Below, piece after piece: positions 33,627-49,865 of a stretch of DNA of 64,000 bases. The stretch's first letter is position 1. Each line of letters starts with the position of its first letter. The notes below the pieces were generated by a model. The model made no database searches and was not told the origin of the DNA. It worked only from the letters and a program-made list of their open reading frames with translations. The stretch covers positions 12,851,001 to 12,915,000 of the forward strand of contig NC_088308.1 of the NCBI RefSeq assembly GCF_910592395.1. The letters run 5' to 3'. This DNA comes from Lineus longissimus (taxonomy: Eukaryota > Nemertea > Pilidiophora > Heteronemertea > Lineidae). The position numbers and the translations under genes are program-made.

Positions 33627-33725
33627 GGTGTTGCAAGAACAAAGCTCGCTCCAGCACTAAGGTGCTGCAAGAACAAAGTTCGCTACAACACTAAGGTGCT
33701 GCAAGAACAAAGTTCGCTACAACAT
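33618..33725 (+). repeat. 34-bp double-hairpin tandem array, three units plus a partial
   Basis: Units begin at 33618, 33652, 33686 and (partial) 33720. Each has a first stem CAACAC/GTGTTG or CAGCAC/GTGCTG around TAAG, and a second stem GAAC-AAA-GTTC. Unit 1 to unit 2 keeps the first stem by a paired A-T to G-C change. It fills the gap between capsid gene and next gene. Polinton 2 has an unrelated 22-bp array at the same place. Confidence 0.85.
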
Positions 33726-33745
33726 TAGATTTTCATCCTAATTAA

Positions 33746-33982
33746 ATGGATACACCTGGAAAGAAAGATATCATAAATACACTGTATCAAAGTTTACTGT
33801 TGGCATCAACAACAATTGGTTACTCTATGTTGCTGAAAAGGTTCTTGAGAATCAATATCGGTCCCCCAAGTCAGGCCGACCTAGAGGAAATTATTAAACT
33901 GGGTGGAACTGTAGCTATTAGTAATGGAACATTAGAGTACCTTTACGATCAAGGAATCCTACCCAGAAATATTATGAAGTAA
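33746..33982 (+). CDS. Small conserved Polinton membrane protein
   Basis: 78 residues starting at TTAAATGG. A hydrophobic helix (LYQSLLLASTTIGYSMLLK) is followed by basic KRFLR, then a conserved IGPPSQADLEEIIKLGG and a second hydrophobic stretch. The Polinton 2 copy at 58520 is intact with only conservative changes, which argues for selection on the protein. Its place between major and minor capsid genes suggests a virion or membrane role. Function unknown. Confidence 0.75.
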   Translation: MDTPGKKDIINTLYQSLLLASTTIGYSMLLKRFLRINIGPPSQADLEEIIKLGGTVAISNGTLEYLYDQGILPRNIMK

Positions 33983-34039
33983 GAATAATGTACTTATTTG
34001 ATAAAAGGTAAATTTGAAAACGAAAATTTACTTAACTAA

Positions 34040-34816
34040 ATGGTAACTGTAATGAACATCGATTCCAGCGACTACCCGGATCAGAGTTCAAGTGATTTAA
34101 CAGTCAATCTCAAGACTGAAATTCAAGATGCATGTAGCATCACTTTAACTTTTGCAGTAATACCTTGTACATTTTACAACATCAGTGCGGCCAGGGAGAA
34201 TAACCGAATCAAAGTTAAGGGGTTTGATGTGGCAGAGATTACGCTACCAGATGGTCTCTATGACCTACAGAGCTTTTCAAAAGTATTTGCGGATAAGTTG
34301 AAAGAAAATAGTATGAGTCGAGGTGCTGTCAGATTTGACCTTGAAGAACCAACAGGTAAGGCCATCTTACACTTCCTAAAGAGAAAAAATGAGGCGCATT
34401 ATCAGTTCTATTTTATTGGTAAAAGCAATGAGTTATTTGGCATGAAAACAGAATGGCCTTACCCTTCAGACAATAAAAGTAAGGATTACGTTGTAAGCGA
34501 GAAACCCATCAATTTTAGACCAATTAACCATTTTGTTTTTCACTGTGACATAATCGAATCTACTAGTGTATTAAGTAATGGTGAAACATCTGATGTGCTA
34601 ACCACAAGACCAATAAAAGAAGCTAATTTTGGGGATTTAATAGCATACACCTTTGAGAAACCAATAGCAATTCCCTGTAAACCAAGATTCAATAAGCTGA
34701 ATATTCGCTTAACGGATGAAAAAGGTGACATCATCGATCTTAATGGTCATGATGTACAGTACCAATTGGTATTAACTCGAGCTCTGCTGTCAGGACGAAG
34801 TCCGACACATCATTGA
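34040..34816 (+). CDS. Polinton minor capsid (penton-like, single jelly-roll) candidate
   Basis: 258 residues from ACTAAATGG. It opens INSSDYP-like (IDSSDYPDQSSSDLTVNLKT), then SITLTFAVIPCTFYNIS, ITLPDGLYDLQSFSKVFADKL, HFVFHCDIIE and LNIRLTDEKGDIIDLNGHDV. This order (an N-terminal strand ending in 'FYNIS', a 'LPDGxY' turn, a late 'CDII' strand and a final 'D-x-x-G-x-x-I' hairpin) is that of the Polinton minor capsid protein, proposed to form pentons at capsid vertices. The last 12 residues are encoded by a double-hairpin mini-element (34779-34803), which the Polinton 2 copy lacks. Confidence 0.7.
   Translation: MVTVMNIDSSDYPDQSSSDLTVNLKTEIQDACSITLTFAVIPCTFYNISAARENNRIKVKGFDVAEITLPDGLYDLQSFSKVFADKLKENSMSRGAVRFDLEEPTGKAILHFLKRKNEAHYQFYFIGKSNELFGMKTEWPYPSDNKSKDYVVSEKPINFRPINHFVFHCDIIESTSVLSNGETSDVLTTRPIKEANFGDLIAYTFEKPIAIPCKPRFNKLNIRLTDEKGDIIDLNGHDVQYQLVLTRALLSGRSPTHH
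34779..34803 (+). repeat. Double-hairpin mini-element copy
   Basis: GAGC-TCT-GCTG then TCA then GGAC-GAA-GTCC. It forms the 3' end of the minor capsid reading frame. Confidence 0.8.
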
Positions 34817-34837
34817 AATTAAATTCGTTGAAATTAA

Positions 34838-35296
34838 ATGGCTGGCATTGGCATGTTATTTGGATCTGCAATAATCAATGGATTAGCATTTACTGGATCT
34901 GGTTACCTTTTCAAGTCACTAGATAAAAACGGTTATGAAGCTGAAGTGAAAAGACATGATTTGGCTCAGGAGCAATTACAAAAAGCTTCAACCGAATGGG
35001 AGGAGCATAGAAAGAGTACTATTGACTTTGTTAATCTTGAATTAAAGAGAGAAAGAGACGCTTCTATTGATTTTAACAATACTGATTCAGCACTTACTGT
35101 TTACAATCATTTACATCCCGATAGAACTATAGTACTACCTCAGAGACCACAATTAAGTGATTATTACCAACCTAGTGATGAAATGAAGAAATACGAGTAC
35201 CTATGGATTATCCTAGGACTTAGTGGTTTAGGATTAATAATTTATTATTTTACTAGGGTTAGAAAGACTAAGACCATTGATGAGAAGCGGGACTAA
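34838..35296 (+). CDS. Conserved Polinton protein with two membrane segments
   Basis: 152 residues from TTAAATGG, 21 bp after the minor capsid gene. An N-terminal hydrophobic Gly/Ala-rich helix (GMLFGSAIINGLAFTGSGYLF), a charged central coiled region (residues ~35-75), a Pro/Tyr segment (QRPQLSDYYQPSDEMKKYEY) and a C-terminal transmembrane helix (LWIILGLSGLGLIIYYF) with a basic tail. The Polinton 2 copy has the same layout but is broken. Possibly a virion membrane or vertex protein; no known function. Confidence 0.7.
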   Translation: MAGIGMLFGSAIINGLAFTGSGYLFKSLDKNGYEAEVKRHDLAQEQLQKASTEWEEHRKSTIDFVNLELKRERDASIDFNNTDSALTVYNHLHPDRTIVLPQRPQLSDYYQPSDEMKKYEYLWIILGLSGLGLIIYYFTRVRKTKTIDEKRD

Positions 35297-35368
35297 GATT
35301 TTTGATGTGAAAGAGTAAATCCAAATGGATGTTGTAGTCTAATGATCAGTTTTGATCCTTTTTTCATC

Positions 35369-35911
35369 TTAAGTTCTTCTGTAGTACTGTCTTTTCTCCT
35401 TAGGAATAACACTGTTTTCTTCTAAGGCATCTTTCATGGCTGATTCATCCTTATTAAAAAATAATACTAAAATTCTTATGTTCTCTCTGTAGTCCTTGAC
35501 AACTGAATTGTACTTCTGAACTAGTAACCAAACAGTAAGATTGTAGTGCCTGCCAGAAAAGGCAAGATTACATAACTCGGACACCTTCTTTTTTGTGACT
35601 CTCAAATTAGCACAGTCATCAATTAGGAATAATGTGTTAGAACCAGCAAAGGTCAGAGTAGCAAATTGAAGCACAAGGTCCAAATTACTGGCCACCGCTT
35701 CGGGATTAACTATGTAGACGCTCTTGTCTTGGTAAATCCATTTCCTGTCATATGTCTTATTGTTGAAATATGTTGGACAGAAAATGACTATGTTTTGGAA
35801 TTTGTGTCGATACTCCTTTTCTAAGAGGTCAAGGGCAAAATATGTCTTACCACAATTGGTGACACCAGAAATTAGCATGTTATGTGGCTCGTAAATAAAT
35901 ACTTCACCCAT
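35369..35911 (-). CDS. A32-like (FtsK/HerA) genome-packaging ATPase
   Basis: 180 residues; ATG at 35909-35911. Walker A: GVTNCGKT (residues ~16-23). Walker B: TLFLIDDCAN (~92-101). Then the sensor region LAFSGRHYNLTVWLLVQ, typical of A32-like packaging ATPases of Polintons, virophages and large DNA viruses. Its shortness is normal for Polintons. It is transcribed away from the integrase with only TTAA between the two start codons. The expected role is pumping DNA into capsids. The frame is intact; the Polinton 2 copy is damaged at the C-terminus. Confidence 0.92.
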   Translation of the reverse strand: MGEVFIYEPHNMLISGVTNCGKTYFALDLLEKEYRHKFQNIVIFCPTYFNNKTYDRKWIYQDKSVYIVNPEAVASNLDLVLQFATLTFAGSNTLFLIDDCANLRVTKKKVSELCNLAFSGRHYNLTVWLLVQKYNSVVKDYRENIRILVLFFNKDESAMKDALEENSVIPKEKRQYYRRT

Positions 35912-35918
35912 TTAAATG
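35909..35918. promoter_or_regulatory. Shared divergent start, palindromic CATTTAAATG
   Basis: CAT (ATPase start, minus), TTAA, ATG (integrase start, plus): a 10-bp perfect palindrome that puts a TTAAATG motif on each strand. Exactly the same arrangement is kept in Polinton 2 (61214-61223), although the flanking codons differ. Confidence 0.7.
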
Positions 35919-37058
35919 GATGTAAAGGATGACACACAGCAGTATCTAAGAGATTTGTACTACAACCCCGAGAGTCCCGTGGCTTACAGTTCTTTGAGTA
36001 AGATGTGGAAACAGGTCAAGGAAGATGGTAAACTTATTAAACAAAAAGAAGTTAAAGAATTTCTAGACACACTACCAACTCACCAACTACACAAACCGGC
36101 CATTAAGAAATTCACCTTCAGGAAAACAATGGTATCGTACATCGATCAACAGTGGCAAGCCGACCTGGTTGACATGCAGAAATTCGAGAGTAAGAATAAA
36201 GGTTTCAGATTCATTTTGACAGTAATAGACCTATTCAGTCGCTATGCTTGGGCTATGGCCGTTAAGAGCAAGAGAGGAGAAGAAATCAGAGATGCATTTA
36301 AAGTGATATTTTCAGGACTTCGTCCAAGGAGCAAAGCTCTAGAGGAAGCAAAACCAGTTGTGGCGATACCAGAAAAGATCCAGTTTGATGACGGTACAGA
36401 ATTCTACAACAAACACTTCAAGGAACTCTTAACAGAAAATGACATAGAATGGTTCTCTACAAAATCTGATAAGAAGGCAGCGGTAGTAGAAAGATTCAAC
36501 AGGACTCTTAAAGAAAAAATGTGGCGTTATTTCACTGCTAAGGAGACAGACAAGTGGATTGACGTACTGGATGACTTGGTCAGTGGCTACAACAACACAT
36601 TTCACTCATCAATAGGTATGAAACCTGTAGACGCCAGAAAGATGGAACACGAAGGAGCTGTGTGGTACAATCCTTACGGTCTTCACCTCAAAGAAACCTT
36701 TGGTGATCCAAAGTACAAAGTAGGTGACAGTGTAAGAATTTCAAAGTACAAGTCCATTTTCGGTAAAGGTTACATGCCCAACTTCACTGAGGAAGTATTC
36801 CAAATCAAACAGATCATCTTCACTCACCCTATCGTCTACAAACTTGAAGATTATCATAAAGAGGAAATTCAAGGATATTTCTATGAAGAGGAATTGAGTT
36901 ATGTTCCTGATCCTGACCAGCTAGAGTACAAGATCGAGAAAATCTTGAGGTACAAGACCAGTAAAGGTAAAAAATACGGATTAGTGAAATGGAAGGGATA
37001 CAGTGATAAATTCAATGAATGGTTACCAATTTCAGGAATAAAAAGCCTAAAACCTTAA
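35916..37058 (+). CDS. Polinton retroviral-type integrase with chromodomain
   Basis: 380 residues, intact. An N-terminal helical region (LYYNPESPVAYSSLSKMWK) precedes the DDE core: QWQADLVDM (first Asp), KIQFDDGTEFYN (second Asp), KAAVVERFNRTLKEKM (Glu). SH3-like DNA-binding segment: YKVGDSVRISKYKSIFGKGY. C-terminal chromodomain: YKIEKILRY ... LVKWKGYSDKFNEWLP. The enzyme inserts the linear element into chromosomes and makes the 6-bp target duplication seen at this copy; the chromodomain probably biases targeting to marked chromatin. Compared with Polinton 2, 15 extra residues (SGLRPRSKALEEAKP region) stand between the catalytic motifs and are encoded by a double-hairpin mini-element. Confidence 0.97.
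   Translation: MDVKDDTQQYLRDLYYNPESPVAYSSLSKMWKQVKEDGKLIKQKEVKEFLDTLPTHQLHKPAIKKFTFRKTMVSYIDQQWQADLVDMQKFESKNKGFRFILTVIDLFSRYAWAMAVKSKRGEEIRDAFKVIFSGLRPRSKALEEAKPVVAIPEKIQFDDGTEFYNKHFKELLTENDIEWFSTKSDKKAAVVERFNRTLKEKMWRYFTAKETDKWIDVLDDLVSGYNNTFHSSIGMKPVDARKMEHEGAVWYNPYGLHLKETFGDPKYKVGDSVRISKYKSIFGKGYMPNFTEEVFQIKQIIFTHPIVYKLEDYHKEEIQGYFYEEELSYVPDPDQLEYKIEKILRYKTSKGKKYGLVKWKGYSDKFNEWLPISGIKSLKP
36315..36339 (-). repeat. Double-hairpin mini-element inside integrase
   Basis: GGAC-TTC-GTCC then AAG then GAGC-AAA-GCTC. Inserted in frame relative to Polinton 2, which reads straight from VIF to EEAIPEK here. Confidence 0.85.
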
Positions 37059-37093
37059 TTTAAAATCTTTTTATCCTTTAAATCAAGCTAGAA

Positions 37094-37936
37094 ATGGAAG
37101 GACAGATATTTAACGTTAACTATGGTACTGTCAATGTTAATCAGTATCCTGTTTATCAGTATCCTGTTTATCAGTATCCTGTTAATCATTATCCTGTTTA
37201 TCAGTATCCTGTTAATCAGTATCCTGTTAATCAGTATCAACCAGTAGTTTCAGGGCCTACATTTAAATGTGTTAAGTGCGATGTAACAAAACCTGAAAGT
37301 TAATTTGATAAGAACAGACGTAATAAACTACTTGATTACTGTAAAGAATGTGGTTCAACTGAAATCAAGAAATGCGGTAAATGTGGAGAAGTTAAATAAC
37401 TAAGTGATGGTGAATTCGGTAAAGATGGAAATAGAGGTAACTGTAGATCATGTTTTAATTCATATTACAAAAAGGATTACCTTGACCAAAATGGTAATAG
37501 AGACAGACACAAAATTAGGGTTGGTCTTAACCGCATTTCTAAGGGAGAGTGTACTGGTAATTCATCATTCAATCTAGGATGTACAGACAGTTTCTTCTCA
37601 CAGTGGTTAGAGTACCAGAGGAGTCTATCTCCAATAGTAGAAGAAGAGTTGGATCATGTCTTACCAATCAAGGAATTCAAAGATAAACCTGAACTGTGCT
37701 TTGCTTGGTTTAACATTCGACCAATGTCTAAAACACAAAACAGGCAGAAAAGTTCCACAGTCGACTTGTGTATTTTCAAAGAGCAATTGTGCCGCTCATT
37801 TAACTTTATGGTCAATAAGCTTAATGAAAACTGGTTTGACTATCGAGATGAAAACGTGATAAACGAGTGGAGAAGGATAACAAACAAGTATTTTTGGGAT
37901 AACCCAGAATTTAACGATATCCTTCTACTTAATTAA
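37094..37936 (+). pseudogene. Zinc-ribbon/HNH-like endonuclease with two in-frame TAA codons
   Basis: One reading frame of 281 codons with only two interruptions, TAA at 37301-37303 and TAA at 37397-37399. It starts with a tandem QYPVYQYPV repeat (15-bp units, residues ~16-50). Cys pairs follow (CVKCD; CKECG; CGKCG; CRSC), as in the repeated 'CxxCG.VKP...F' zinc ribbons. The C-terminal part has LDHVLPIKEF and CFAWFNIRPM, the 'DHV/I-P ... N-x-x-P' signature of HNH nucleases. Many invertebrate Polintons carry a protein of this kind. Both stops sit at positions one change away from CAA or GAA codons. The frame is otherwise undamaged. Decay by point mutation is the simplest reading. Confidence 0.6.
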
Positions 37937-37992
37937 TTTTCATCTTTATCTTCATCTGAATAAATAATATTAATTTTATTTCTTCTGAATAA

Positions 37993-38271
37993 ATGAATAG
38001 AACTTGGGGTTACACAAAATGACCACGTAATTGGAAAGAAAGATTAGAACGATTTCATAGAGAATTAGAGGCAGAAGAAGAGTCAAAGTTGGAGCCTGGT
38101 CCCGAAAAACCTTTAAAACCTGCTGGGTCAGAAAAACCTGCTGGGTCAGAAAAACCTGCTATGGTCGAAAAACCTTTAAAATTTAATGTACTTAAAAAAC
38201 CTGTAGTGTCTGCACGATCAACACTAAACACTAGAAATGTCAGAACACCTGATTCTAGTTATTCCCACTAA
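37993..38271 (+). pseudogene. Small basic/Pro-rich Polinton protein with an in-frame TGA
   Basis: Starts at AATAAATG (37993) and reads MNRTWGYTK, then TGA (38020-38022), then PRNWKERLERFHRELEAEEE and a Lys/Pro region with PAGSEKPAGSEKP repeats, to TAA at 38269-38271. The N-terminal 'TW...RPRNWKERLERF' style looks like a genuine conserved start, and the frame is open on both sides of the TGA. A CGA or AGA to TGA change would explain it. An internal ATG at 38089 could start the rest. Function unknown. Confidence 0.45.
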
Positions 38272-38275
38272 TTAA

Positions 38276-39094
38276 ATGGATGGAGACAACAAGGTTTATC
38301 CAGATTTAAGTAATTTAAACTCTGAAAGTCAATTAAACTATGAAAGGTCTGAAAAGCACACAGAAAGTAACCCTCAGGCTTTCAGACTACAACAAATATG
38401 TGAGGTTAAGAGTTTCTTAGAAAGCGAGATTGAATTTAGAAGAAAGATATTTTCAAAGTACAAAAAAGCATTTAGCGTAATTACTGGCGTTAGTCATAGT
38501 CTTAATTTTGTAAGCGTTGCGGCTGGCTCAGTTGGTGTGTCTGCACTGGCTGGTGTCATCACAGCACCGATAGGTTTAGCTTTGGGTGGTGTGACAATAG
38601 GAAGTGCCCTTTTTTCCTCATTTCTAAGTTGGCAGAAGAAAAGCATACTTAAGAAAATTGAAAAGCATGAAAAGTTGAGTATGCTTGCAATTTCAAAACT
38701 TAACACCATCAATGATCTGGTGAGTAAGGCCATGAGTGATTCGCACATTTCAACAGATGAGTTTACTTTGATTCTCAAGGAGAAGGAAAAATACATTTCG
38801 ATGAAAAATACCATTAGGAAAAAACAAAGGGAGGCAAGTTCAGCTGTTGATGTGGAATCTTTAAAGAAGACTTTTTTAGAAGAAGGAAAAAAAGATAGCT
38901 CAGACAGAGATGCTAGAAAAACTGAAGTCACAGTAAATCAAACAGGACTCGAGCTATGCTCTCAGGACAAAGTCCGACTAAATAGTCCTAATCCTAATGT
39001 GGTGTATCACTATCACTATCACCATGACTTCGGTGTTAGGGGTGAATTTCCGCCAGTGCCACTACCATCAGCGCCACCATATTCATTAGTTTAA
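38276..39094 (+). CDS. Polinton membrane protein with C-terminal PSAP and YxxPhi motifs
   Basis: 272 residues from TTAAATGG. A helical region (LESEIEFRRKIFSKYKKAFSVI) is followed by a long hydrophobic Gly/Ala segment, residues ~75-120, able to span a membrane twice (VSALAGVITAPIGLALGGVT). A second helix ends in KLNTINDLVSKAMSDSHIS. This 'ExExRxxxxxKYKKA ... LNTISDLVSKA' layout is a common Polinton-associated family in marine invertebrates. The last residues read PLPSAPPYSLV, containing a PSAP late-domain-type motif and YSLV (YxxPhi). A double-hairpin mini-element encodes LELCSQDKVR at residues ~226-235. Possibly a membrane or egress protein; function not established. Confidence 0.7.
   Translation: MDGDNKVYPDLSNLNSESQLNYERSEKHTESNPQAFRLQQICEVKSFLESEIEFRRKIFSKYKKAFSVITGVSHSLNFVSVAAGSVGVSALAGVITAPIGLALGGVTIGSALFSSFLSWQKKSILKKIEKHEKLSMLAISKLNTINDLVSKAMSDSHISTDEFTLILKEKEKYISMKNTIRKKQREASSAVDVESLKKTFLEEGKKDSSDRDARKTEVTVNQTGLELCSQDKVRLNSPNPNVVYHYHYHHDFGVRGEFPPVPLPSAPPYSLV
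38951..38975 (+). repeat. Double-hairpin mini-element copy
   Basis: GAGC-TAT-GCTC then TCA then GGAC-AAA-GTCC; in frame inside the PSAP protein gene. Confidence 0.9.
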
Positions 39095-39096
39095 TC

Positions 39097-39121
39097 GAGC
39101 TATGCTCTCAGGACAAAGTCC
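39097..39121 (+). repeat. Double-hairpin mini-element in a convergent gene end
   Basis: GAGC-TAT-GCTC then TCA then GGAC-AAA-GTCC. It fills the 30-bp gap between two converging stop codons (39094 and 39125), where it could act as a terminator hairpin. Confidence 0.9.
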
Positions 39122-39124
39122 GAC

Positions 39125-42100
39125 TCAAGCGAAGTTTGAATCGCTGTAATCTATGTAGCCTTCATAATACATTCCAAATGGTAACGTTCTTATTCCATCT
39201 TCAAGTATGAACCTCTTATCATCAAAAGGACTGAGGCTTTTTTTGTCAACTTCTTCCAAATAGATTTGGTGTTTATCTGATCTTAAGTGTCTCATCTTGT
39301 GGTAAAATGACATACTCTTTTCAAGACAATCAACATAGTCATCAAATGAGATATCTCTCTTTACTACATTCTTGGCAATACCCTTTAATTTCTTAGAATC
39401 GTAATCTTTTGTCCTGTAAGCATACATCTTACTTCTCAGGGCAATGAATTCAGTCATCTCGACTCCTCCTAACTCATCCTTGAAATAACCTGGCACCTTC
39501 TTCTTACTGGTGTCATAGAGTGGATGATCTTTTGGATAATTACTGAAGTCAAAATAGTGTTTCAACTCATTTAAGTCTTTAGTTAAGTCATCAGTATTAA
39601 TGTTAAGTACAAAGGAATCTGTATCTAGATACAGTAGTTCAATATTTTTCTCACCAAAGTACGGTTGAAGAACTTCATAATAGAATTCATACATTAATAA
39701 TTTAGACAATTCAAGTACTGAAGCTCCTATGTAGATTGGTTTGTTGAATTTCATTGATGTTTTCCTCATGCTAATAGCAGCATTCTGTTCGTCAAATACG
39801 CATATCGATGAAAACCTGGGATTGGCCATTACACTCCTGGCTCTCTCCCCGTCCGTTACCAATTCTATTTCCACCCTGTTCCTTACATTCTCACAAGTCT
39901 TTCCGTAGAAAGCATTATTCATGAGCTTGAAATAGTCTTTCTCAAAATCAGTCTTAGAATCCATAGTCTTTTAGTATTAAAATCAAGTATGGTGCTAACC
40001 ACTTTGATTGTTTAAAACATATCACCGAATGAACCCTCTTAAGTACCATTCCGTGCTTGAGGTAAACTTGTAGCATTCTGTAATGCACTATGTAATTAGT
40101 TTTATCCTTTTGTGTTAGTATTAGTTTTTCTACATTTGATCTTTTATCATCGCCCAGTAACTCTCTCTGGTAAGGACTTAATTCATCATCTTCAATAAAG
40201 AGAGATTCGAGACAGAATGGAAAGTTCCTTGACTTAAATTTAATATTTCCTGGATACTCCAAATCCACCTCTAAGAAGTAGCCTACTTCACTATCACTTG
40301 GAATTGCCATAATCTGCTCTTTACTGATAACATTCATGTTAAGTGGATCAATATCTATCATTTCAAAACTACCATAGGGTTGAGGTTCCATCATGGACCA
40401 GCCATAGAAATTGTTTGCGTCTACGTAGAGTAGTTTGTGGTGTTCATCGGCCTTGACATGTCCAGTTCCCATAACACCCGAAATTCCACCTCGTATTGCT
40501 TTCTCAAAAGTAAGTAAGATGTTGGTATCAGGCAGTAGTTCTAGGTTTATTCCTGTGTACTTCAAACCAGCTTGCCAGGTTAGGCCTGGTGCCGAGTAAC
40601 AGTGACATGGATCTATCTGAAAGTAGTTCAAATTGATATCCCTGAATTTCTCAAATAAATCAGCTAAAAGGATCACATCAGTTTTGAGGTAGAGGTCAAT
40701 GAACTCAGCGTGATTCCTGATCTTGAAATGATCCCATATTACCTTATCCTCATCATAGGCAGAATCAGGTGCCATTTCATTTTTCAATTCGTCAAAAAAC
40801 ATAGACTTTTCTAGGTAAGTGACATTGTAGCTTTCATGTGATGTGTAAAAAGAGTAAGGTACTGAACCCTTCTTCCTCAATAGTTTAAAATCAATGGTAT
40901 TTGGGAACTTCTGTCTCGTAATTTTAAAGTCATCATCCAGCATTGATTTGGTTATGTTGTCTAAACTGGACTGCATGAATCTGTACGAGTCCAAAAACCT
41001 GAAACAACCGAACTGAAATGAGATGTATTCCTCTGCTGTTTTGGCAAGTAATTTCAGTTTCTTATACTTCGGTAGTTTAGTCATTAAGTCTTTGATAAAC
41101 AGGTGTGAATCATAATTACTAAGATTGTGAAAAAATACTGGAACGAACATGGCTTTATTTTCATTCAAATTGCATGAGCTGTGAGCAGCACCTCGATATC
41201 TACCACTGTAGTGATCGTGATCCTTGACCTTGTCATATCCTAAAGGTTGATTACAGTAATAACATTGTGTTTCTAATTGATATTTCTGCCAGTCAGACTT
41301 CGTCTTGAGAGCATAGCTCGAGTCGGACTTCGTCCTGAGAGCAGAGCTCGAGTCTTCATCTGTCATTGTTAGAGGAAAGTTACAGTTCAATAAATTAGAG
41401 AATTGTTCTTCCAGCCTGATTAACCAGTTACAGAACACATCTACAACATCAGCACCCCTGTGAGACACATACTGGCTACTGTAAAGTTGTGGGTAGTCTG
41501 AGTGAACATAAACACGAACAGCTGATGCATGTTGTTTGAATAGTTTTTTAGTGGTAACAGTGGTATCTGTCTGAGTTGTGTTATCATTGACTGTTGTGCT
41601 TATCGCTTCGAAATCAGCATAGATTACAAAGGGAACTCTATTTTTAAATGAGTGTTTTTCAAATTTAAGCTGTGACCATTTACTGTTAGGTGGAGGCAGA
41701 CTGATCTTACAGTAATCGTGTTCTCCACATTTCTTTTTATGATTGTCTAGTGTAGACTTCCTGTAAAAGTAATTCATGCATCTCCTGCAAAGATACACTC
41801 TATGAGCGAGTGACCTGAAGAAAAGATTGATGTCTCTTATGTACATGAAATGGTCCTTGAAATAGAGCAGATCAATGACATCATCATCGTCATAATTCTT
41901 GGACAGGTAGAGAGGTTCTAGTTTTGCGGCATAAATGCTTTTAGCCCATTCGTTCTCTAACTTGAACACATTAATTTTGAGATTATTATCACTCTCTATC
42001 TTAGGGATATCCTTTTGAATACATACAGGAAATGAGTCTATTTGTACTCCGTACTGAGAGCAGAGCCCGATTTTGATATCTGTAGTTTTCGAACTCTGTT

Positions 42101-42887
42101 CTCGTGACGAAGTCATTTCTAGCATATCAGTAGTGATATTGAATGTACTCTCAGGATTTTCTTTTAGATATTTAGCGGCCAATAAAGACCTGAGAAAACA
42201 TTTATTGTCATTCGACTCCACATTGATTACAGCTTTTGTTTTAAATGGTAATTTAGTGTAATGACCACCTTTACACCTCTTGTAAGAACAGATGGTCATG
42301 TTACAAGACTCTATTTTGTTCAGTGTAAGTCCAGACCCTTGAAAGTACCTTTCCTCAATCTGTGTCTTAATGTAGTTTAACTGGTTGGTTATGGCATAAA
42401 TTGCCTGGTTCCTTGAAATTATGCTTTCCATTGGAGACTGTATGGGGTGTGTCGAGCTATGCTCTCTGGACGAAGTCCGGGTTACACTTTCACCTTGACG
42501 ATAAAACTGAGCAAATACTGATATGCTTATTTTGTGATGGTAATCATTGAGTTGAAATAATACCTCCTCTAATTTCTCTCTGTATTCATACACTTGTTTA
42601 GCTTCTCTGTCAATCTTCAAACTAATGGTGACTACAGGCTTGCCAAATTGTTTTACTATTTCTACTCCACTCACTTTCTTTATGCCATCTGGCTCATTTT
42701 CCTCAAATGCAAGTTTCTTATCCATACTTTTAGTGATCAGTGATTGGGCTCGGGGTTGAGCAATAGGGACATAATCCGGATTTAATTTGGTCAGGTGACC
42801 TTTGGTTCTCCTGTGAATGGCCATATTATTGTATGATATGTACTTGTCACATGTAGTGCAAAGTATTTTCTGATTCTTATCAGTCAT
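39125..42887 (-). CDS. Protein-primed DNA polymerase B (pPolB), two adjacent frameshifts
   Basis: About 1250 codons from ATG 42887. An N-terminal C2H2-like finger (CTTCDKYISYNNMAIHRRTKGH region) is followed by more Cys/His clusters (CRRCMNYFYRKSTLDNHKKKC region; CYYCNQPLGYDKVKDHDH). Exonuclease: YADFEA (residue ~423), NLSNYDSH (~590), YLKTDVILLAD (~737). Polymerase: motif A YVDANNFYGW (~822), motif B KLMNNAFYGKT, motif C YLDTDS. All catalytic residues are present. The frame breaks at two one-base deletions about 14 bp apart (39969-39972 in an A-run; 39983-39987), just before SKTDFEKDYFKL. In Polintons this enzyme replicates the linear genome by protein priming. At least four double-hairpin mini-elements lie within the gene, for example the one encoding KTKSDSSYALKTKSD. 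Confidence 0.96.
41295..41349 (-). repeat. Tandem pair of double-hairpin mini-elements inside PolB
   Basis: Two copies 30 bp apart (41295-41319 and 41325-41349). The first has AGAC-TTC-GTCT where the second has GGAC-TTC-GTCC, so the closing base pair changed on both sides. They encode a repeated K-T/S-K-S-D-S/W segment. Confidence 0.9.
42044..42115. repeat. Two diverged double-hairpin copies inside PolB
   Basis: 42044-42068 (minus sense): GTAC-TCC-GTAC then TGA then GAGC-AGA-GCCC. 42091-42115 (plus sense): GAAC-TCT-GTTC then TCG then TGAC-GAA-GTCA. Three of the four stems differ from the consensus but remain fully paired. Confidence 0.65.
42454..42478 (+). repeat. Double-hairpin mini-element inside PolB
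   Basis: GAGC-TAT-GCTC then TCT then GGAC-GAA-GTCC, near residue 140 of the polymerase. Confidence 0.9.
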
Positions 42888-42944
42888 TCTATTTTATTAG
42901 ACTAAAATTTATTAAATTCAATAAATCTCTTGAATTAAATAGAA

Positions 42945-43976
42945 ATGGACTTCATAATCAGTGAACAAGAATGTAATGAAGCCAAATTTGAGTACTACTT
43001 AACAGACCAATTAGACATAAAATCCATTACTTTGAAATCGATAACCTTTTACAATTCATGGTGGACAGGTGATTTTCTACCAGAGGGAGTAAGGATTTTC
43101 TCATTTCTAGTCGAAATAACCAGAATTACAACAAATGAGCCCGTAGATAAACAATTATGGTGTATGGGTGAATTTAGGACATTATTTGCTCCTGGACTTG
43201 AAACAGATACACTTGAAAAGGAAGTCATGAAAATTTGCGAACGGCATTTGGAAAATGAATCTACCACAACTAAAGACACCATTACTAAATACACATTTCC
43301 ATACTCTCGACATTTTAGTTTAAGTGAGTTTTGTGAGGTATGGCAAAAATACATAAAAGAAATTGGAATTAGCCATGTGAAAATTTACTGTGATAACAAT
43401 AATTACATAACCCTTGAACTTACAGAGGATAAAGAGTACCCTCTGAAAGTAGACAAGTTAGATAAAAATGAAAAAATCAAGATTGAGAGAAACACAGAAG
43501 GTCTTCAAATACGCAAAACCATAAGAGAGTTGATAAAAAAACAGCTCACAGTGGTGAATGAGTGGTTTGGCTTTAAGAAAACTAAATTCACCAAGAAAGG
43601 AAAATACCACTCCACAAGACCACTCAACTTTTACAGGAAATATCTATTCCTGCAAGCTAATTTGGTTGACAAAGCTAAGACCCTCTACAACAATAAACCA
43701 TCTGACATTTTCTGCATCATACCTGTAGAAGATGGTGACCAAATAAAAATGCAGCGATACGAACCGAATTGTAAGAAAACGATAAATAAGTGTACTAATC
43801 ACATAAAATTCGAAATCACTGATGAGAATGGTAAGCTAGTTAATTTCAGAGGAACAGAGGTTTCTTTAGAGTTAAGAATCGAGCTATGCTCTCAGGACGA
43901 AGTCCGAATAGAGTTAAACTCTTGTGGTGAAGACAAGCACCTCGGACTCGAGCTATGCTCTCAGGACGAAGTCTGA
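42945..43976 (+). CDS. Second jelly-roll-like (penton/fibre-type) Polinton protein
   Basis: 343 residues, head-to-head with PolB. N-terminal half: beta-rich with MDFIISEQECNEAKFEYYLT and SITLKSITFYNSWW, reminiscent of the strand-plus-'FYN' opening of the minor capsid gene. C-terminal half: basic (FGFKKTKFTKKGKYHSTRP), then PSDIFCIIPVEDGDQIKMQR and HIKFEITDENGKLVNFRGTE, which parallels the closing strands of the minor capsid candidate (LNIRLTDEKGDIIDLNG). It is therefore probably a paralogous single jelly-roll protein, perhaps for a special vertex or spike. The last ~35 residues are made of two in-frame double-hairpin copies encoding ELCSQDEV twice. No counterpart in the visible part of Polinton 2. 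Confidence 0.5.
   Translation: MDFIISEQECNEAKFEYYLTDQLDIKSITLKSITFYNSWWTGDFLPEGVRIFSFLVEITRITTNEPVDKQLWCMGEFRTLFAPGLETDTLEKEVMKICERHLENESTTTKDTITKYTFPYSRHFSLSEFCEVWQKYIKEIGISHVKIYCDNNNYITLELTEDKEYPLKVDKLDKNEKIKIERNTEGLQIRKTIRELIKKQLTVVNEWFGFKKTKFTKKGKYHSTRPLNFYRKYLFLQANLVDKAKTLYNNKPSDIFCIIPVEDGDQIKMQRYEPNCKKTINKCTNHIKFEITDENGKLVNFRGTEVSLELRIELCSQDEVRIELNSCGEDKHLGLELCSQDEV
43881..43974 (+). repeat. Two double-hairpin mini-elements forming the end of the second jelly-roll gene
   Basis: 43881-43905 and 43950-43974, both GAGC-TAT-GCTC then TCA then GGAC-GAA-GTCC; the second ends in T (G.U pair possible). The gene stops at the base after the second. Confidence 0.9.
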
Positions 43977-43989
43977 CCACCTGATGAGA

Positions 43990-44445
43990 TCATTCCATTA
44001 AAGGAATAGTACATTTCTTCTCTTTAACTACAGGTTTAACAAGAGGGCTAATTGACCCCTTCCTGAGTGATCCCTTCATGACTGCTTCATTCAAGCCTGA
44101 TCGCTGCTCTTTACTTACTTTTTTAGGAAGTTTCTTAAACATGATAAATGCTGCTAAAATAATTGCACCTAAACCTACATAGACATAGGTGTTACTGGTA
44201 GATTCACGCAGTGATACATCAGTATTTTGAGATTGTGGTTCTTCTTCCTCTACTTCTTCCTCCTTTTCCACAACTCTGTTGTTTGGGGAGGAGTACTGTA
44301 CTTTAAATGTCGTCTTATCCTTTTTTATCCTCTTAAATTCCTGAGATCTTCTACCCAGTTCTCTAGACCATGCTAATTGTTTCTCTGATCGAGGTTTCTT
44401 AGACACTGAAACTTTAGTAGTATCAGTTACAGTTTCAAGTTCCAT
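43990..44445 (-). CDS. Polinton single-pass membrane protein
   Basis: 151 residues from ATAAATGG. The N-terminal part is basic (KQLAWSRELGRRSQEFKRIKK) with an acidic patch (EKEEEVEEEEPQ). A clear transmembrane helix follows (YVYVGLGAIILAAFIMF, residues ~90-106), then a Lys-rich tail. It sits tail-to-tail with the second jelly-roll gene, 13 bp apart. Polintons commonly encode such small membrane proteins; no function known. Confidence 0.65.
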   Translation of the reverse strand: MELETVTDTTKVSVSKKPRSEKQLAWSRELGRRSQEFKRIKKDKTTFKVQYSSPNNRVVEKEEEVEEEEPQSQNTDVSLRESTSNTYVYVGLGAIILAAFIMFKKLPKKVSKEQRSGLNEAVMKGSLRKGSISPLVKPVVKEKKCTIPLME

Positions 44446-44493
44446 TTATCTTGGCCGAATAAATTCGAACTATGATCTCATAACCAGGTTAAT

Positions 44494-45306
44494 TTAGTCT
44501 TCTTTATCATCACTATCTGTGATATCTAGACTTTCATCTATTGGTTTGTCACATTCAGAGACAGTCATATTTGGTGTATTCATTGATGATTCCTCATGAC
44601 AATGGCCTAAATTAATAAGTGTTGTTGAAGCAAGTGCAGTTAGTGCTCCCATTTTGATACTAACCCATCCAAGCCATTTGTCAAGTTCATTGGTAACGAT
44701 GTAATCATTTCTGAGGTCATGGTAAAGATCATCCTCGTCATCTATTGGTAATAACCACCTTGATAATTTAGTGTAAGCTTTAAGTACTGTCTTACCCAAA
44801 GAATCATTAAGTCTGGCAGCCATCTTTGTCTGGTAGATTCTGTGGTGTTTTAAGAGTTCCTTTTCTGTCATATTATCTAAGTCATTTAAAGTTAGTTGTT
44901 TATTAAGTAAATACTTGCTTTTCCCAGTTGCAACTAAAATTTCTAAGTCTTGTTTGGCTTTAAGGCCACTATCAGTCAAATAGTTCAAATTTTGTTGATT
45001 GCTACTTGAACCTTGTTGATTGCTACTTGAACCTAGTTGGCAACTAGAATTGACTATTCCTTGACTAGGGGTAACTAAATTTGAACTATTCAACTGCTTG
45101 TTTGAAACTTGTTGATTTGTAGTGCAGTTCTGTTGAAAGTTAGTACTGTTCTGTTGGTAACTACCAGTGTTCTGTTGGTTAGAAGCCCCGACTCGAGCTA
45201 TGCTCTCAGGACTGCGACCGACTGGGTTTTGATTGATAACACCAATATGTTTCATTTGTTGTTCAATTACAGATGATGTCTGACTATTCATTTGCTGACT
45301 GTTCAT
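44494..45306 (-). CDS. Asn/Gln-rich Polinton protein
   Basis: 270 residues from TTTAAATG. The first ~105 residues are dominated by repeated S/N-N-Q-Q (for example GSSSNQQGSSSNQQ), with one double-hairpin copy giving VGRSPESIARVG. The second part is a more ordered helical region (LDNMTEKELLKHHRIYQTKMAARL) with a moderately hydrophobic stretch (IKMGALTALASTTLINLG), then an acidic Asp/Glu tail. Function unknown. The N-terminal repeats probably grew by slippage. Confidence 0.6.
   Translation of the reverse strand: MNSQQMNSQTSSVIEQQMKHIGVINQNPVGRSPESIARVGASNQQNTGSYQQNSTNFQQNCTTNQQVSNKQLNSSNLVTPSQGIVNSSCQLGSSSNQQGSSSNQQNLNYLTDSGLKAKQDLEILVATGKSKYLLNKQLTLNDLDNMTEKELLKHHRIYQTKMAARLNDSLGKTVLKAYTKLSRWLLPIDDEDDLYHDLRNDYIVTNELDKWLGWVSIKMGALTALASTTLINLGHCHEESSMNTPNMTVSECDKPIDESLDITDSDDKED
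45195..45219 (+). repeat. Degenerate double-hairpin mini-element
   Basis: GAGC-TAT-GCTC intact, followed by GGAC-TGC-GACC where the second stem is weakened; inside the Asn/Gln-rich gene. Confidence 0.75.
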
Positions 45307-45379
45307 TTAAAATAATAGAAAAATGAGTGTTAAGTGCAAAATACTGTTTTCACAAGTTTATTGCACTTAACACTAGCTC

Positions 45380-45404
45380 AAGCTATGCTCTCAGGACAAA
45401 GTCC
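45380..45404 (+). repeat. Double-hairpin mini-element at the 3' end of the zinc-ribbon gene
   Basis: AAGC-TAT-GCTC then TCA then GGAC-AAA-GTCC. Confidence 0.8.
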
Positions 45405-46288
45405 GGCTGGTGCTAACTTAATACTACTGATGCAGTTAATGTCTCGACCTGCACTAGCACTCAATAAAACGTCAAACTGCTTGTCAATTTCCTGGTCATA
45501 TTCCTTCTCAACCTTGTAATTCTGGAAGAAAATACTTTGAGTGAAATCATACCATAATCTCTCCAAATCATTAACTCGCTCCTTGTTGGTTAAAAAAGGA
45601 CTAAATATTACATAATCAATTTTCTTCGTTTTAAAGGCTTGGTGTAAAAATACCTTGTAGTTAATTGTGACCTTCACACCACAGTAATGCAGAAATCTAA
45701 GGAAAGCATAGTACACTAGTCTAAGGTCAGTGATATTCTCATCTGTTAATTGGGGTTTACCAATAGCCCTGTTGATAAATTCAATGGCAAGAAACCAGTC
45801 ATATTCCCCACAGTGAAATGTACAAGTATGGCCTCGCCATGTAACCCCTTTTCCCGTAACTTAGAGGGGAGAGTGTTAATACCCATTTTTAAAGCTAAGT
45901 GGACTGTACTTTCATATCTCTGCTTACTAAGACATTTTCTGGGACTTGAAAAGTAGCACTGTAATACACTTCCACAAAGTCCTTTAAATATTTGAGAACC
46001 GATTCAGACAAACGTCTCCATCCAAGCTTTCTAAGAATAATGTCAAAATAACGAATCTTGTTGTCAATATTGATCTCAAGAGTCTTAAAATCATCATCAT
46101 AACTGGTTGCATTACAAACAATGCAGAATTGATACTTCACAGTTTTAGCGGCGTTCCTGGCTAAATTTAAATTCTTTTGATACTCAAAAAGTGTCCAACG
46201 TTTGCAATTACGGCAGAATTGGGCATTAGTGTTGGTACTGACGTCATATTCTTTCATTCTTGGCAGGACTACTTTGTGTGTCTCAGTC

Positions 46289-46313
46289 AGACTTCGTCTT
46301 GAGAGCATAGCTC
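46289..46313 (-). repeat. Double-hairpin mini-element inside the zinc-ribbon gene
   Basis: AGAC-TTC-GTCT then TGA then GAGC-ATA-GCTC: the A-T closing pair shared with the copy at 41295. Confidence 0.9.
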
Positions 46314-46517
46314 GAGTAGGCTTATCAAATTTCCCACTGTCATAATTCTTGCTGTCATTTTCTTCACTGAAATTTCTATCCATGACCCTAGGACGAATAT
46401 AACCTTTAAGATTCTCATTGTTCCACTCACTAGAATAATAATCTTTTAATGAGATGTATTTATTCATATTTACATGATAATTATTTTTTTAAACATTGTT
46501 TTTTGATAGAAGTTCAC

Positions 46518-48047
46518 CTAAGACCTTTTACGTGATTTTAACCTTTTACGTGATTTTAAGGCTTTAACACCCCCAATTAAACCATAGATTATGGAGCTCA
46601 CAATAGCAATAACTGCTATGATCAGATGTTCAGCTAGAAACCCAACAACTGCACCAATTGTTTTCAGGAGAAATGATACGATAGAACCGATGATTCCCGG
46701 CAAAGCCGCAGCTGATTTCTTGGCTAGTTCTTTTAGCCATTCAGCAAACTTCTTGAGACCTTCTTTTACTTTATCTGGTATTGATGGTTTTGGTCCTGGC
46801 CCAGGTTCTGGTGTAGGTCCTGGAGTTGGGTCTGGTCCTGGAGTTGGGTCTGGTCCTGGAGTTGGTTTTACAGATTTAGTGGCACCACTTAAAGCACTAC
46901 TGATACTGAGACCTAGAGTTGTAAATGTCATTACAACAGCTGTTATTATGGCGCTAATAGTTACACCATACGTCTTAAAAAGTAACTTTATTCTGTCCTT
47001 TAGAGGAATAGTTGAATCTGGTTTCTTTAGAACATCAACAATTAAACGTTTAATTCTTCTAGTTTGTGACTCCCTGTCATTGTCTAACCTCCATACCTTT
47101 GACATTTCCTCATACAATTTATTATTTAGTTCATCTATTTGCTTTTTCAACTCCCCCGTATCTTTAGCACCTTCTTCTACATACTTTACATAGTCTCTTG
47201 TTAAATTATGAAGTTTTTTTTCTAATTCCTCTATTTGCATGTCCTTATCCCTCTTTACTGCAGCTAGATCATCACCAGCCTGTTTTAACCCTCTAAGTTC
47301 TCTCAAAGCGTTTTCTGTAAAACCAAATGCCCTTAATTCTTCATCATTAGCATCTATCAGTTGATCTATTGGTTGGTTTGAACTGTTTACCTCATTAATT
47401 AGTGACTGTGTTTCAACAGCTTGAGTTGATATCGGTTGTGGTTGACTTACTGATTCCTGGCCTTCCATAGGTGCAATTCTAGGTCTTTCCATAGGTGCTG
47501 GTTCATCAGGTGCAATCATACCTCTAATCATGTCAGCAAATCTAGTACCAAACTTATACGTTAATGTGCTTTCAGCAAAGAATTTACTATCACCCTTAGT
47601 TAAAGGAATGATCAAGCTAGTAGTCTGTTTATTAAAAGGATTAGTGATTGGTTTCATATTTTCCTTTTGTGGTTCTGTAAAGTTTGCGAGTTCTTCATCT
47701 GTTGGCCAGAAGTAAGGATCTTCGTTGTACAAATAAATACGTGATGCTAGATTACTCAGTTTGTTCTTGTCATATTTCCATTTTGTATCTTCCAATGCTT
47801 TTGCAAGTTTATCCTCGTTTTTTAGTAGCCAACTCTTCTCTTGCTCTAGTTGCGGATCAATACCTCTTACTCTACCTGGATTTGTAGTGAATGAAGTTTC
47901 AGTAGTAAGATTTGTATTACCTGTGTTGTATGTTGTGCCGTCATCTTGAAAATTTCTATTATTTCTCCAATCAGGAAGATCATCATCATCAGGATCGTAA
48001 TAAGTATCGTAATCATCCATTTCATAATCTTCACCTCCTTCAGCCAT
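46518..48047 (-). CDS. Large Polinton coiled-coil/membrane structural protein
   Basis: 509 residues, intact. Order: very acidic N-terminus (DPDDDD); a folded region; a conserved PIDQLIDANDEELRAFGFTE segment followed by a long coiled coil (residues ~250-330); a transmembrane helix (ISAIITAVVMTFTTLGLSI, ~370-390); a Pro/Gly tandem repeat (PTPGPDPTPGPDPTPGP); an amphipathic helix (LKKFAEWLKELAKKSAAALPG); and a C-terminal hydrophobic segment with a basic tail (SRKRLKSRKRS). The Polinton 2 homologue (55579-57092) keeps the order. The amphipathic and hydrophobic C-terminus suggests membrane insertion or lysis during entry, by analogy only. A function has not been shown to my knowledge. Confidence 0.65.
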   Translation of the reverse strand: MAEGGEDYEMDDYDTYYDPDDDDLPDWRNNRNFQDDGTTYNTGNTNLTTETSFTTNPGRVRGIDPQLEQEKSWLLKNEDKLAKALEDTKWKYDKNKLSNLASRIYLYNEDPYFWPTDEELANFTEPQKENMKPITNPFNKQTTSLIIPLTKGDSKFFAESTLTYKFGTRFADMIRGMIAPDEPAPMERPRIAPMEGQESVSQPQPISTQAVETQSLINEVNSSNQPIDQLIDANDEELRAFGFTENALRELRGLKQAGDDLAAVKRDKDMQIEELEKKLHNLTRDYVKYVEEGAKDTGELKKQIDELNNKLYEEMSKVWRLDNDRESQTRRIKRLIVDVLKKPDSTIPLKDRIKLLFKTYGVTISAIITAVVMTFTTLGLSISSALSGATKSVKPTPGPDPTPGPDPTPGPTPEPGPGPKPSIPDKVKEGLKKFAEWLKELAKKSAAALPGIIGSIVSFLLKTIGAVVGFLAEHLIIAVIAIVSSIIYGLIGGVKALKSRKRLKSRKRS

Positions 48048-48057
48048 AATTACTTAT

Positions 48058-49445
48058 TTATCTAACCATAAAAACAATCAATGTACCAACAACTGAGTAA
48101 AGCATGAATTTAATTGTTTCATGAGTATCATCCTCCCTCTCAACTTTGGTGTCCCGTTTAGTAGTAGGAGTATTCTTTGATGTTTCAGTTGTTTTTGGTG
48201 CATCAACATTACTCTTTGGTGTATGACTGGTCTCGAGCTCTGCTCTCAGGACGAAGTCCGTCTTGACAGTATCAACACTACTCTTAACTCTTATTTTCTT
48301 AGAACTATTTCCTTCCATCAGTGGTGGTGGTAAGGTCTTTTTGTGGTTAATGTCATTCTTACCAGGTTTAGCTTTTTTGGTGCTATTAAAATGTTATTAT
48401 TGTAGTTATCCAGCTTACCAATAACGAGTACCATATTTGACCCTATGACATACAATCCTGGTGCTATTACATAGTCTAGTCTTGTATGAGTGTCACTCAC
48501 TGCTTTTTGGTATCTTTGAATTGAAGTGGGAATATCAGGATGTTGATTAATCGAGTCCTTTAATAGTTTGTTAAATTCCTTCTGAGCATCCAATTCTGTA
48601 CCCGGTACTCCAATTATTGGTGTTCTGGTCAACGCCTGAGCACCCAGAATACAGTAAACATATGTTCTTATTGTGTCATTCAACCTCTCTATTCCAGGAT
48701 TAGAGAAACCATTTGATTTAGATATCATGAATTGTTGATAGGTTTGACATTCATTTTGTGTAATTACATCAAATACATTCTTGTGTTGTTTCACATGATA
48801 CTTAATGAAGGTATCTGGATATTTGAAATTAGCCATTCCAGCATCCCAATCAGATTTAAACATTGGTGGCATTCTATTTTCATGAACTTGCATGAGGAAG
48901 AAATTGATTTTAGAATCATTGATGTAATATCCGGGATCAGTTATGTTCGGGTTGTAATCCGGTACACTCCAGGAAGTCCACCCCTCATTACTTTCAAACA
49001 CTGAGAAATCATATTCGTCTTTTAAACCAAATTCACTCAATAACCCTCCTAGTTTCCTACGGTTAATGTTATTGTTTGTCTCATTGAAATCACTTTCACC
49101 TGGAATTGGTATCTCTAGATTCTTCATGATCTTCAATATTTGATAGTAAACATGAAATCTGTAAATTGACCTTATCAATGGGTCACTGTGATTCAAGTGA
49201 TCATCTATTGAAATACCACAACCGGTAGTAGCAAACCAAACAGCCATGTTAAATTGGTTCTGGTAAAACGATAATGGATTCTTTTCCAGTCGCAGACAAT
49301 CTTTCTTATTTTTCAGGCTCAAAAACCCAGGTGTTATCTTAGTTTCTTGTAGTCTGAAGAAATTGTTACTGTTAACAGTTACTTCTAAATTAAAGAAGTC
49401 ATAGGTGAATTTACTTTTATGTTGATTTGCTATTGGATAATACAT
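48058..49445 (-). pseudogene. Polinton ~450-aa tail-anchored structural protein, one frameshift
   Basis: ATG 49445 (TTAAATG) opens 375 codons. Near 48367-48369 one base is missing and the frame closes 50 bp later. The adjacent frame continues from 48318 (MEGNSSKKIRVKSS) to 48058, with a Thr/Lys-rich stalk and a C-terminal transmembrane helix (MLYSVVGTLIVFMV). The Polinton 2 homologue (54220-55578) is one 452-aa ORF across this point, proving the frameshift. Main domain: beta/aromatic-rich with FYQNQFNMAVWFATTGCGIS, GWTSWSVPDYNPNITDPGYY and PGLYVIGSNMVLVIGKL. Probably a surface or membrane-anchored virion protein. Annotated as broken, but an internal restart at 48318 is possible. Confidence 0.65.
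48235..48259 (+). repeat. Double-hairpin mini-element in the tail-anchored protein stalk
   Basis: GAGC-TCT-GCTC then TCA then GGAC-GAA-GTCC; encodes TDFVLRAELE on the minus strand. Polinton 2 lacks it. Confidence 0.9.
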
Positions 49446-49514
49446 TTAATTTACTTGAATTTTTCCTTGAATTTTGGATAATGAAGACAGTAAAAAGGCC
49501 ATTTATTTTAAGGA

Positions 49515-49675
49515 ATTAACCCATTGACTACCAGTGTATTCCCTAAGTAATATATTAATGAGGTGGCTGGTTCTTAGGGGTTTCTAAGCTATTTTGAGGC
49601 AAAAAGGCCTGTAAGGGATTTTGTCAAAATAGCTTCAAAATACCTACATTCCTATCACCTCATTAATATATTACT
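49515..49675 (-). repeat. Polinton 1 right terminal inverted repeat
   Basis: Inverse of 31426-31586, with the same internal foldback (49546-49675). The target duplication CAGTAT follows at 49676-49681. Confidence 0.95.
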
Positions 49676-49865
49676 CAGTATATATCCCGTTTTAGCCAAC
49701 AGCATCGCTAAATGATGCTTCAAACTTGTTGTCCTCCACGCAAAATTGAGTGGTACTGTTACTTTTTGCAAACTGTGGTAATTTCAAGAAAGCTCTCTGC
49801 AGATATGTCTATAAATTGTCCAAAATAATTGAATTAGTCTCAAACATGAATTAGTTTGTTTTCAG

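Follow-up and report, generated by a model that had tools for sequence, protein, structure and literature searches.

Short double-hairpin units in Polintons of the ribbon worm Lineus longissimus: a mobile mini-element with a proposed three-nucleotide joint of its own

The DNA analysed here, 64,000 nucleotides (nt) of Lineus longissimus contig NC_088308.1 (positions 12,851,001 to 12,915,000; hereafter the window), contains two Polintons, which are virus-like transposons, and in the first of them a small unit made of two adjacent hairpins recurs at many places. A reading made from the sequence only had listed 15 copies (at least 14), and had suggested a parasite of a parasite, a packaging or recombination signal, or an RNA processing element. 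What is this unit, and by what route did it reach so many sites in one transposon? The best explanation as a whole, to which we give a probability of about 0.6, is a mobile, non-coding mini-element of DNA, resident in the Polinton 1 family of L. longissimus, that moves as a unit carrying its own joint. The descriptive part of this answer (the unit, its flanking triplet, steps of 30 nt, filled and empty alleles, and stems that are kept) we regard as very nearly certain; the route is far more tentative. The element is unusually small, with about 2,300 matches in the ribbon-worm genome, and wherever checked it lies inside a Polinton, mostly in its genes.

The unit, its copies and its host

The core of the element is 27 nt long: one base, the hairpin GAGC-NNN-GCTC, the linker TCA, the hairpin GGAC-NNN-GTCC and one further base. 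Its commonest form, C-GAGC-TAT-GCTC-TCA-GGAC-GAA-GTCC-G, accounts for 49 of 476 copies. The same 3 nt are usually found on both sides of the core, and most insertions add a net 30 nt, or a multiple of it, to the site. Two hairpins and a TCA linker had been described correctly, while the original length of about 25 bp gives way to 27 nt plus a flanking triplet. The ends are C-GAGC...GTCC-G followed by the triplet; as read from the sequence, their inverted repetition covers only 5 nt (CGAGC / CGGAC) and is imperfect.

An ungapped 29-letter scan allowing up to 9 mismatches found 16 copies in the window, 15 of them at 34777-48261 and one at 61411-61439 (-), and returned no match for 20 letter-shuffled queries. 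With the originally described 25-mer and up to 3 mismatches, 12 matches were found versus none in 100 shuffles. All 15 coordinates first listed are real copies, one more being present in Polinton 2; neither scan found a copy elsewhere in the window, in agreement with the sequence-only reading.

Polinton 1 (31426-49675) was delimited by terminal inverted repeats of 161 nt (31426-31586 and 49515-49675, 99% complementary), a 6-bp duplication CAGTAT (31420-31425 and 49676-49681) and gene content: an integrase, an A32-like ATPase, polymerase B (polB) and a weak capsid match. Published work gives the genome as 391 Mb in 19 chromosomes (PMC8593623). We scanned 391,118,348 bp on both strands with the 25-mer at up to 3 mismatches, obtaining 2,314 matches (1,146 and 1,168 by strand) versus none for the reversed control. 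A Polinton 1 marker occurs 177 times, giving approximately 13 element matches per marker; the genome holds about 180 Polinton 1 copies.

Confinement was checked with exact copies. Among the 100 exact matches listed, the first in contig order (contigs C1-C10), 98 lie within 10 kb of one of the 73 exact Polinton 1 markers compared, and a Polinton 1 polymerase is the location of the other two. Around 22 of the 73 markers there is no exact element copy inside 10 kb. Loci of 10 kb were fetched around exact copies (L numbers in what follows denote fetched loci), and all 22 contain Polinton 1, with 239 copies at up to 3 mismatches, 8-17 in each. These loci, having been picked for exact copies, are biased upward in density. 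At the genome-wide density fewer than one copy per 100 kb would be expected. The fetched copies sit on contigs of 15.9-29.4 Mb, that is, not in mitochondrial DNA. An equal density outside Polintons, which would have spoken against a Polinton dweller, was thus not seen for the exact matches listed; inexact copies were not placed singly and no random host sample was taken. The pattern GAGCNNNGCTCTCAGGACNNNGTCC has no match in viral_contigs or genome_contigs, and an integrase search of viral_contigs found no relative, but few animal Polintons are expected there and the absence is a weak one. Literature on Polintons (Mavericks), virophages and giant-virus palindromes contains, in the excerpts available and with most subscription papers outside the search, no report of such an element in Polintons, and the suggestion that none was known holds to that extent.

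Filled and empty sites

That the element inserts is proved by the coexistence of filled and empty alleles of the same site. One site, at about 40340, is filled 133 times and empty 49 times genome-wide (up to 3 mismatches); another, occupied in the window by the copy at 36314-36340 (-) in the integrase gene, is filled 5 times and empty 182 times at the same mismatch limit, and Polinton 2 also lacks an equivalent insertion. Both common and rare insertions therefore exist. All fetched loci from L009 onward were sorted into 57 flank classes, some being two readings of one site; an empty allele was found for 33, and none among the fetched copies for the other 24. The presence/absence variation among related Polintons on which the sequence-only reading had made mobility depend is thus plentiful.

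Net lengths in the 33 classes are 30 and/or 60 nt in 24 cases, 15 nt in three, and 16, 28/58, 29 (three times) and 31 nt in the remaining six. The earlier question whether insertion lengths keep the reading frame can be answered: they are nearly always multiples of 15 or 30, with one out-of-frame 29-nt insertion in L047. An alignment of polB from 24 Polintons (9 from exact-copy loci or the window, 15 from a separate retrieval) gives a similar picture, since 17 of its 26 internal gap runs of at least 12 columns, counted by hand, are 30, 60 or 90 columns long. The others measure 15, 17, 31, 34, 37, 45 (twice), 48 and 57, and most are in or beside element sites or a replaced segment at approximately columns 1421-1577. 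Five polB copies of the window illustrate the range of occupancy: the copy at 41294-41320 (-) is the second of a tandem pair where the other 23 aligned copies have no element or one; the copy at 41324-41350 (-) is flanked by ACT / ACT; diverged copies at 42043-42069 (-; AAT / AAT) and 42090-42116 (+) are present in 7 and 22 of the 24, respectively; and the copy at 42453-42479 (+) has flanks TGT / GGT and an empty allele TGT. One polB target holds two different elements, singly or side by side.

To count flanks, the 33 classes were reduced by hand to 22 independent sites, classes with an element-sequence flank or repeating another class being merged or dropped. A clean 3-nt duplication is present at 15 of the 22 (ACT 9, AAT 4, TCT 1, ATT 1). 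The seven unclean sites comprise TGT/GGT twice (empty TGT), ACT/ACA (empty ACA), GAT/ACT (empty GAT), TCT/TCA (empty TCA in one copy, TTA in another), one 29-nt case, and 36314, whose 30-nt insertion has no flanking repeat at all. Where the two flanks differ, the empty allele matches one of them at five of seven sites. Nine of the 22 sites carry ACT, versus a background of 0.020 (P 2e-10), and none carries AGT, which indicates that the orientation of the element follows the target. Across the 22 loci and the window, an exact 3-nt flanking repeat occurs in 253 of 386 copies, and none of 4 nt or more, while right-flank shuffles give 66; the 386 copies are non-independent, many being the same site in different Polintons.

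The remaining window copies show the same mixture. Flanks are ACT / ACT at 38950-38976 (+), 45194-45220 (+) and 46288-46314 (-), TCT / TCT at 48234-48260 (+), and AAT / AAT at 43880-43906 (+), an exact match to the commonest sequence; they differ at 34778-34804 (+; ACT / ACA), 43949-43975 (+; ACT / ACC) and 39096-39122 (+; AAT / ACT, in a 3′ spacer). The copy at 45379-45405 (+; GCT / GCT) is single in the window and an array of 10 in L025, GCT-site arrays ranging from 1 to 10 copies. Overall, 112 neighbouring pairs, in the same and in opposite orientations, are spaced exactly 30 nt apart. Units of 15 nt with a single hairpin occur, and a circularly permuted 30-nt unit is found at a TCA target in L033 and L035. 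Polinton 2 has a six-hairpin array in its integrase gene (61382-61468 (-), 87 nt, 12-nt hairpins joined by TCA, GAT / GAT flanks on the + strand), which contains the copy 61412-61438; its relative in L046 has four hairpins. In L047, at the equivalent of window position 36026, the Polinton 1 integrase gene carries a 57-nt array of degenerate hairpins, near the place of the Polinton 2 array.

Stems and reading frames

The predicted DNA fold was two 4-bp hairpins with 3-nt loops in all four sequences folded. Covariation was measured in 105 distinct variants (one of 106, seen twice and of low complexity, was dropped beforehand). Of 840 pair cells, 776 hold Watson-Crick pairs, versus 737 at most in shuffles, and 34 are changed on both sides, versus a mean of 6.5 and a maximum of 16 in 500 shuffles; slid controls are lower on both measures, with at most 299 paired cells and 19 double changes. 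Loops vary freely, including inverted forms (TCT/AGA, AAA/TTT). The stems covary, then, while the loops drift.

Most copies lie within genes. In the 22 loci and the window, 358 of 386 copies are in open Polinton frames with blastp support, 185 sense and 173 antisense; of the 28 outside open reading frames (ORFs), 26 are in two 3′ spacers, one is in polB of L026, and one is at window 48234. For the window itself the count is 14 of 16, with 39096 and 48234 as exceptions, and the statement that nearly all copies lie inside genes, in either orientation and with frames kept open, is upheld. Because 30 nt make ten codons and the subtypes are mostly stop-free (six tested, open in 4 to 6 of 6 frames), genes survive insertion. 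The commonest form has stops in two antisense frames. Among 45 supported copies in one stop-prone frame none has the TAT loop, and among 40 in the other none has the TCA linker. Type B (CGAGCTTTGCTCTC[TG]GGACTTTGTCCT) is open in 5 of 6 frames with ACT joints; only the GAAC...GTTC form is open in all 6. The predicted L. longissimus protein P0003 (LOC135500132) contains a Polinton 2-type peptide, GHRPDGHSPESIA; it is the clear case among 3 of 240 homologous proteins that match an element-like peptide pattern, P0207 and P0231 being unconvincing, and a narrower element-peptide scan of 120 homologous proteins found none.

Routes of movement and related systems

Two routes fit the clean sites alike: cutting with a 3-bp stagger, or insertion of a 30-nt unit together with its own triplet. 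We lean, tentatively and at less than even odds, toward the second, in which the 27 nt plus a 3-nt joint would move at the DNA level and be inserted during Polinton DNA synthesis or repair. The moving form may be a small hairpin circle, or a copy made out of an array by template switching; it would enter where the target matches the joint, preferably ACT, and where Polinton DNA is single-stranded, stalled or broken in replication or repair. Having no coding capacity, the element would rely on enzymes of the Polinton or the host. We favour this route because it explains the one-sided mismatches, the repeat-less insertion, the 9:0 ratio of ACT to AGT, the permuted and half units, and the arrays. 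A more daring version, which we hold to be rather doubtful, is a self-spreading, transposase-free unit of two hairpins ringed by two 3-nt joints, either of which pairs with a matching single-stranded Polinton triplet and is written in. If so, the joint would be a tiny address label, the subtypes would be shaped for readability in each reading frame, and the element, itself parasitic on a virus-like parasite, would rank with the smallest mobile elements.

Several points weigh against the joint-carrying element. No enzyme, circle or live insertion has been observed. Clean duplications at 15 of 22 sites would also be expected from a staggered-cut transposase, and at the site in the HNH-like gene, counted among the 15, just 1 of 4 filled copies shows one. 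Later mutation could have produced the mismatched flanks, the difference being a single base at 4 of the 7 unclean sites; deletion could account for the 15-nt forms, and inverted array members carry AGT beside an ACT neighbour. ORFs were taken from stop to stop, so that the open-frame count is partly circular and its informative part is the small number of gene-internal copies outside an ORF; the 29-nt insertion in L047, near the end of gene g34838, breaks the frame. As to structure, extra pair types number 5, whereas both shuffles and slid versions go as high as 6, and fold energy is unremarkable (z -0.7 to -1.5). The variants share descent and were gathered for their likeness to the hairpin sequence, and correction of palindromes could look like selection on stems.

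The main rival, ranked below the joint-carrying route and in our view unlikely, is a classical transposase: the element would be an extremely short miniature inverted-repeat transposable element whose ends, CGRRC, are recognised by a trans-acting enzyme (the Polinton integrase, or that of another transposon or the host) making a 3-bp staggered cut, the triplet being a target-site duplication. Left, right and empty-allele triplets are indeed identical at 15 of 22 sites, the ends share the imperfect inverted repeat noted above, and most clean targets read ANT. Against it stand the mismatched flanks of which one side is the target and the repeat-less insertion at 36314, together with the permuted and single-hairpin units and the lack of AGT, since a symmetric target would give both ACT and AGT. 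The Polinton integrase in particular makes 6-bp duplications, as at this Polinton (CAGTAT), versus 3 nt at the element. Less probable again is the absence of any dedicated element, an abundant hairpin-prone 30-mer being recopied by microhomology-primed templated insertion, for example in polymerase-theta end joining. In its favour are few-nucleotide homology, inverted copies, and deletions of 27 or 30 nt that seem to have used short homology and that leave scars (L032, L033, L035 and L009); in yeast, templated inverted duplications as short as about 5-34 bp have been described (PMC11724301). It does not account for the same ends at many unrelated sites or for checked copies lying in Polintons only, and random lengths would break frames far more often; no insertion dragging donor flanks was noticed, though no systematic search was made.

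Three further explanations carry little weight. A cis-acting Polinton signal for packaging, recombination or replication, rather than a parasite, would suit the approximately 13 matches per marker, the conserved structure, and copies that seem to be recombination points (in L015 and L047, below). We find it improbable: among Polintons 90-98% identical in polB protein, the position, number and orientation of copies differ, with 185 sense and 173 antisense, and the packaging or recombination signal first suggested fits poorly as a positional one. An element acting at the RNA level, as a mini-intron, a processing signal or a small RNA copied back into DNA, is more improbable still. It could draw on the two-hairpin fold and on a length of 27-30 nt, which lies in the small-RNA size range, but sense and antisense copies are about equal, frames are kept open, and predicted protein P0003 retains its peptide; the suggested RNA processing role fares badly on the first of these counts. 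Local tandem repeat growth with gene conversion and no transposition has the lowest standing of all, for although GCT-site arrays and pairs at exactly 30 nt are what it would produce, single copies at many unrelated flanks, precise empty alleles and both orientations contradict it. A parasite of a parasite, of the suggestions first made, fits best and survives the confinement and presence/absence checks.

Tiny hairpin pairs are DNA-level transposition substrates in REP/BIME sequences with RAYT and in the systems of IS200/IS605-type HUH transposases, and the Polinton element would be like them in this. To our knowledge the IS200/IS605-type HUH family does not produce flanking duplications; the Polinton element, unlike IS200/IS605 or REP/RAYT, has flanks that mostly look duplicated. 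Its manner of working resembles that of the GC clusters in yeast mitochondria, and its habit of in-frame insertion that of Rickettsia palindromic elements, with no kinship implied. The GC clusters (GC42) share hairpin DNA that is short and GC-rich, a putative duplication of the target at the flanks, presence or absence at homologous positions, element mergers, and loops that vary more than stems (PMC4478555). GC42 is 42 nt long with target AG, has 82 of 89 positions intergenic and 7 in introns, and moves by a mechanism left unresolved there (PMC4478555). The Polinton element differs in being nuclear, in its virus-like transposon home, in its 27-nt core, in its 3-nt triplet (ACT, AAT, TCT, GCT and ATT observed, not a 2-nt AG target), and in that fetched copies are mostly in coding frames. 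The Allomyces double-hairpin and sponge mitochondrial hairpin-forming elements are likewise small, scattered, and mobile by comparison of relatives, but are organellar (PMC2800124), and the likeness is by description, not by sequence. According to the sponge paper, Allomyces elements lack flanking duplications (PMC2800124). The proposed resemblance to fungal organelle elements therefore stands for the two adjacent hairpins and fails for the flanks, clean repeats being present at 15 of 22 Polinton sites. Rickettsia palindromic elements are palindromic selfish DNA in frame in many protein genes, but are bacterial and about 150 bp long (PMC10969869); the in-frame feature is shared here by the 358 copies in supported ORFs, in a 27-nt element of a eukaryotic Polinton with 30-nt steps.

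The movement of organellar hairpin mini-elements is unresolved in the papers cited (PMC4478555 among them). One genome here offers about 180 copies of Polinton 1, so that filled and empty sites can be compared many times over with exact ends, and rival mechanisms make different countable predictions for these comparisons. The case also shows large-scale tolerance, by a virus-like genome, of insertions of ten residues in the polymerase and other genes, and the elements may serve as deletion and rearrangement points. In L015 (C1:13110000-13119999), at approximately position 3996, a hybrid element has its left flank from one site and its right flank from a second, and about 3.75 kb by window coordinates, including part of polB, is gone, as if two copies had recombined. 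L047 has, at the equivalent of window 38887, a 308-nt near-tandem duplication of the g38276 gene end with elements inside.

An HNH nuclease was considered as mover. The Cys-rich ORF 37103-37933 is HNH-like by eye, but neither its longer open piece nor the ORFs of three relatives match HNH in Pfam, and the candidate was set aside; in the window it has two in-frame TAA codons, and longer frames exist in L015, L022 and L024. PolB (39957-42893) has a weak Endonuclease_7 match (residues 539-590, E 4e-4, below cut-off), and many homologues also list PF02945. As movers, both are leads only.

Some smaller features were noted. Each Polinton end has its own imperfect palindrome of 52-55 nt (window 31426-31555 and 49543-49678). 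Protein matches P0001, P0126 and P0133, related to the Polinton integrase or polymerase, are assigned to Bartonella, Sulfurimonas and an Omnitrophica metagenome-assembled genome, probably because animal DNA entered bacterial assemblies. The capsid-like gene ends in a tandem 34-nt repeat with GAAC-AAA-GTTC hairpins (window 33611-33724), which may or may not be kin to the element. Columns 388-418 of the polB alignment hold a 30-nt insertion with GATC flanks (GACCTTTGGTCGAAGAGCAGAGCATT), loosely like the element family and perhaps an older or separate subfamily.

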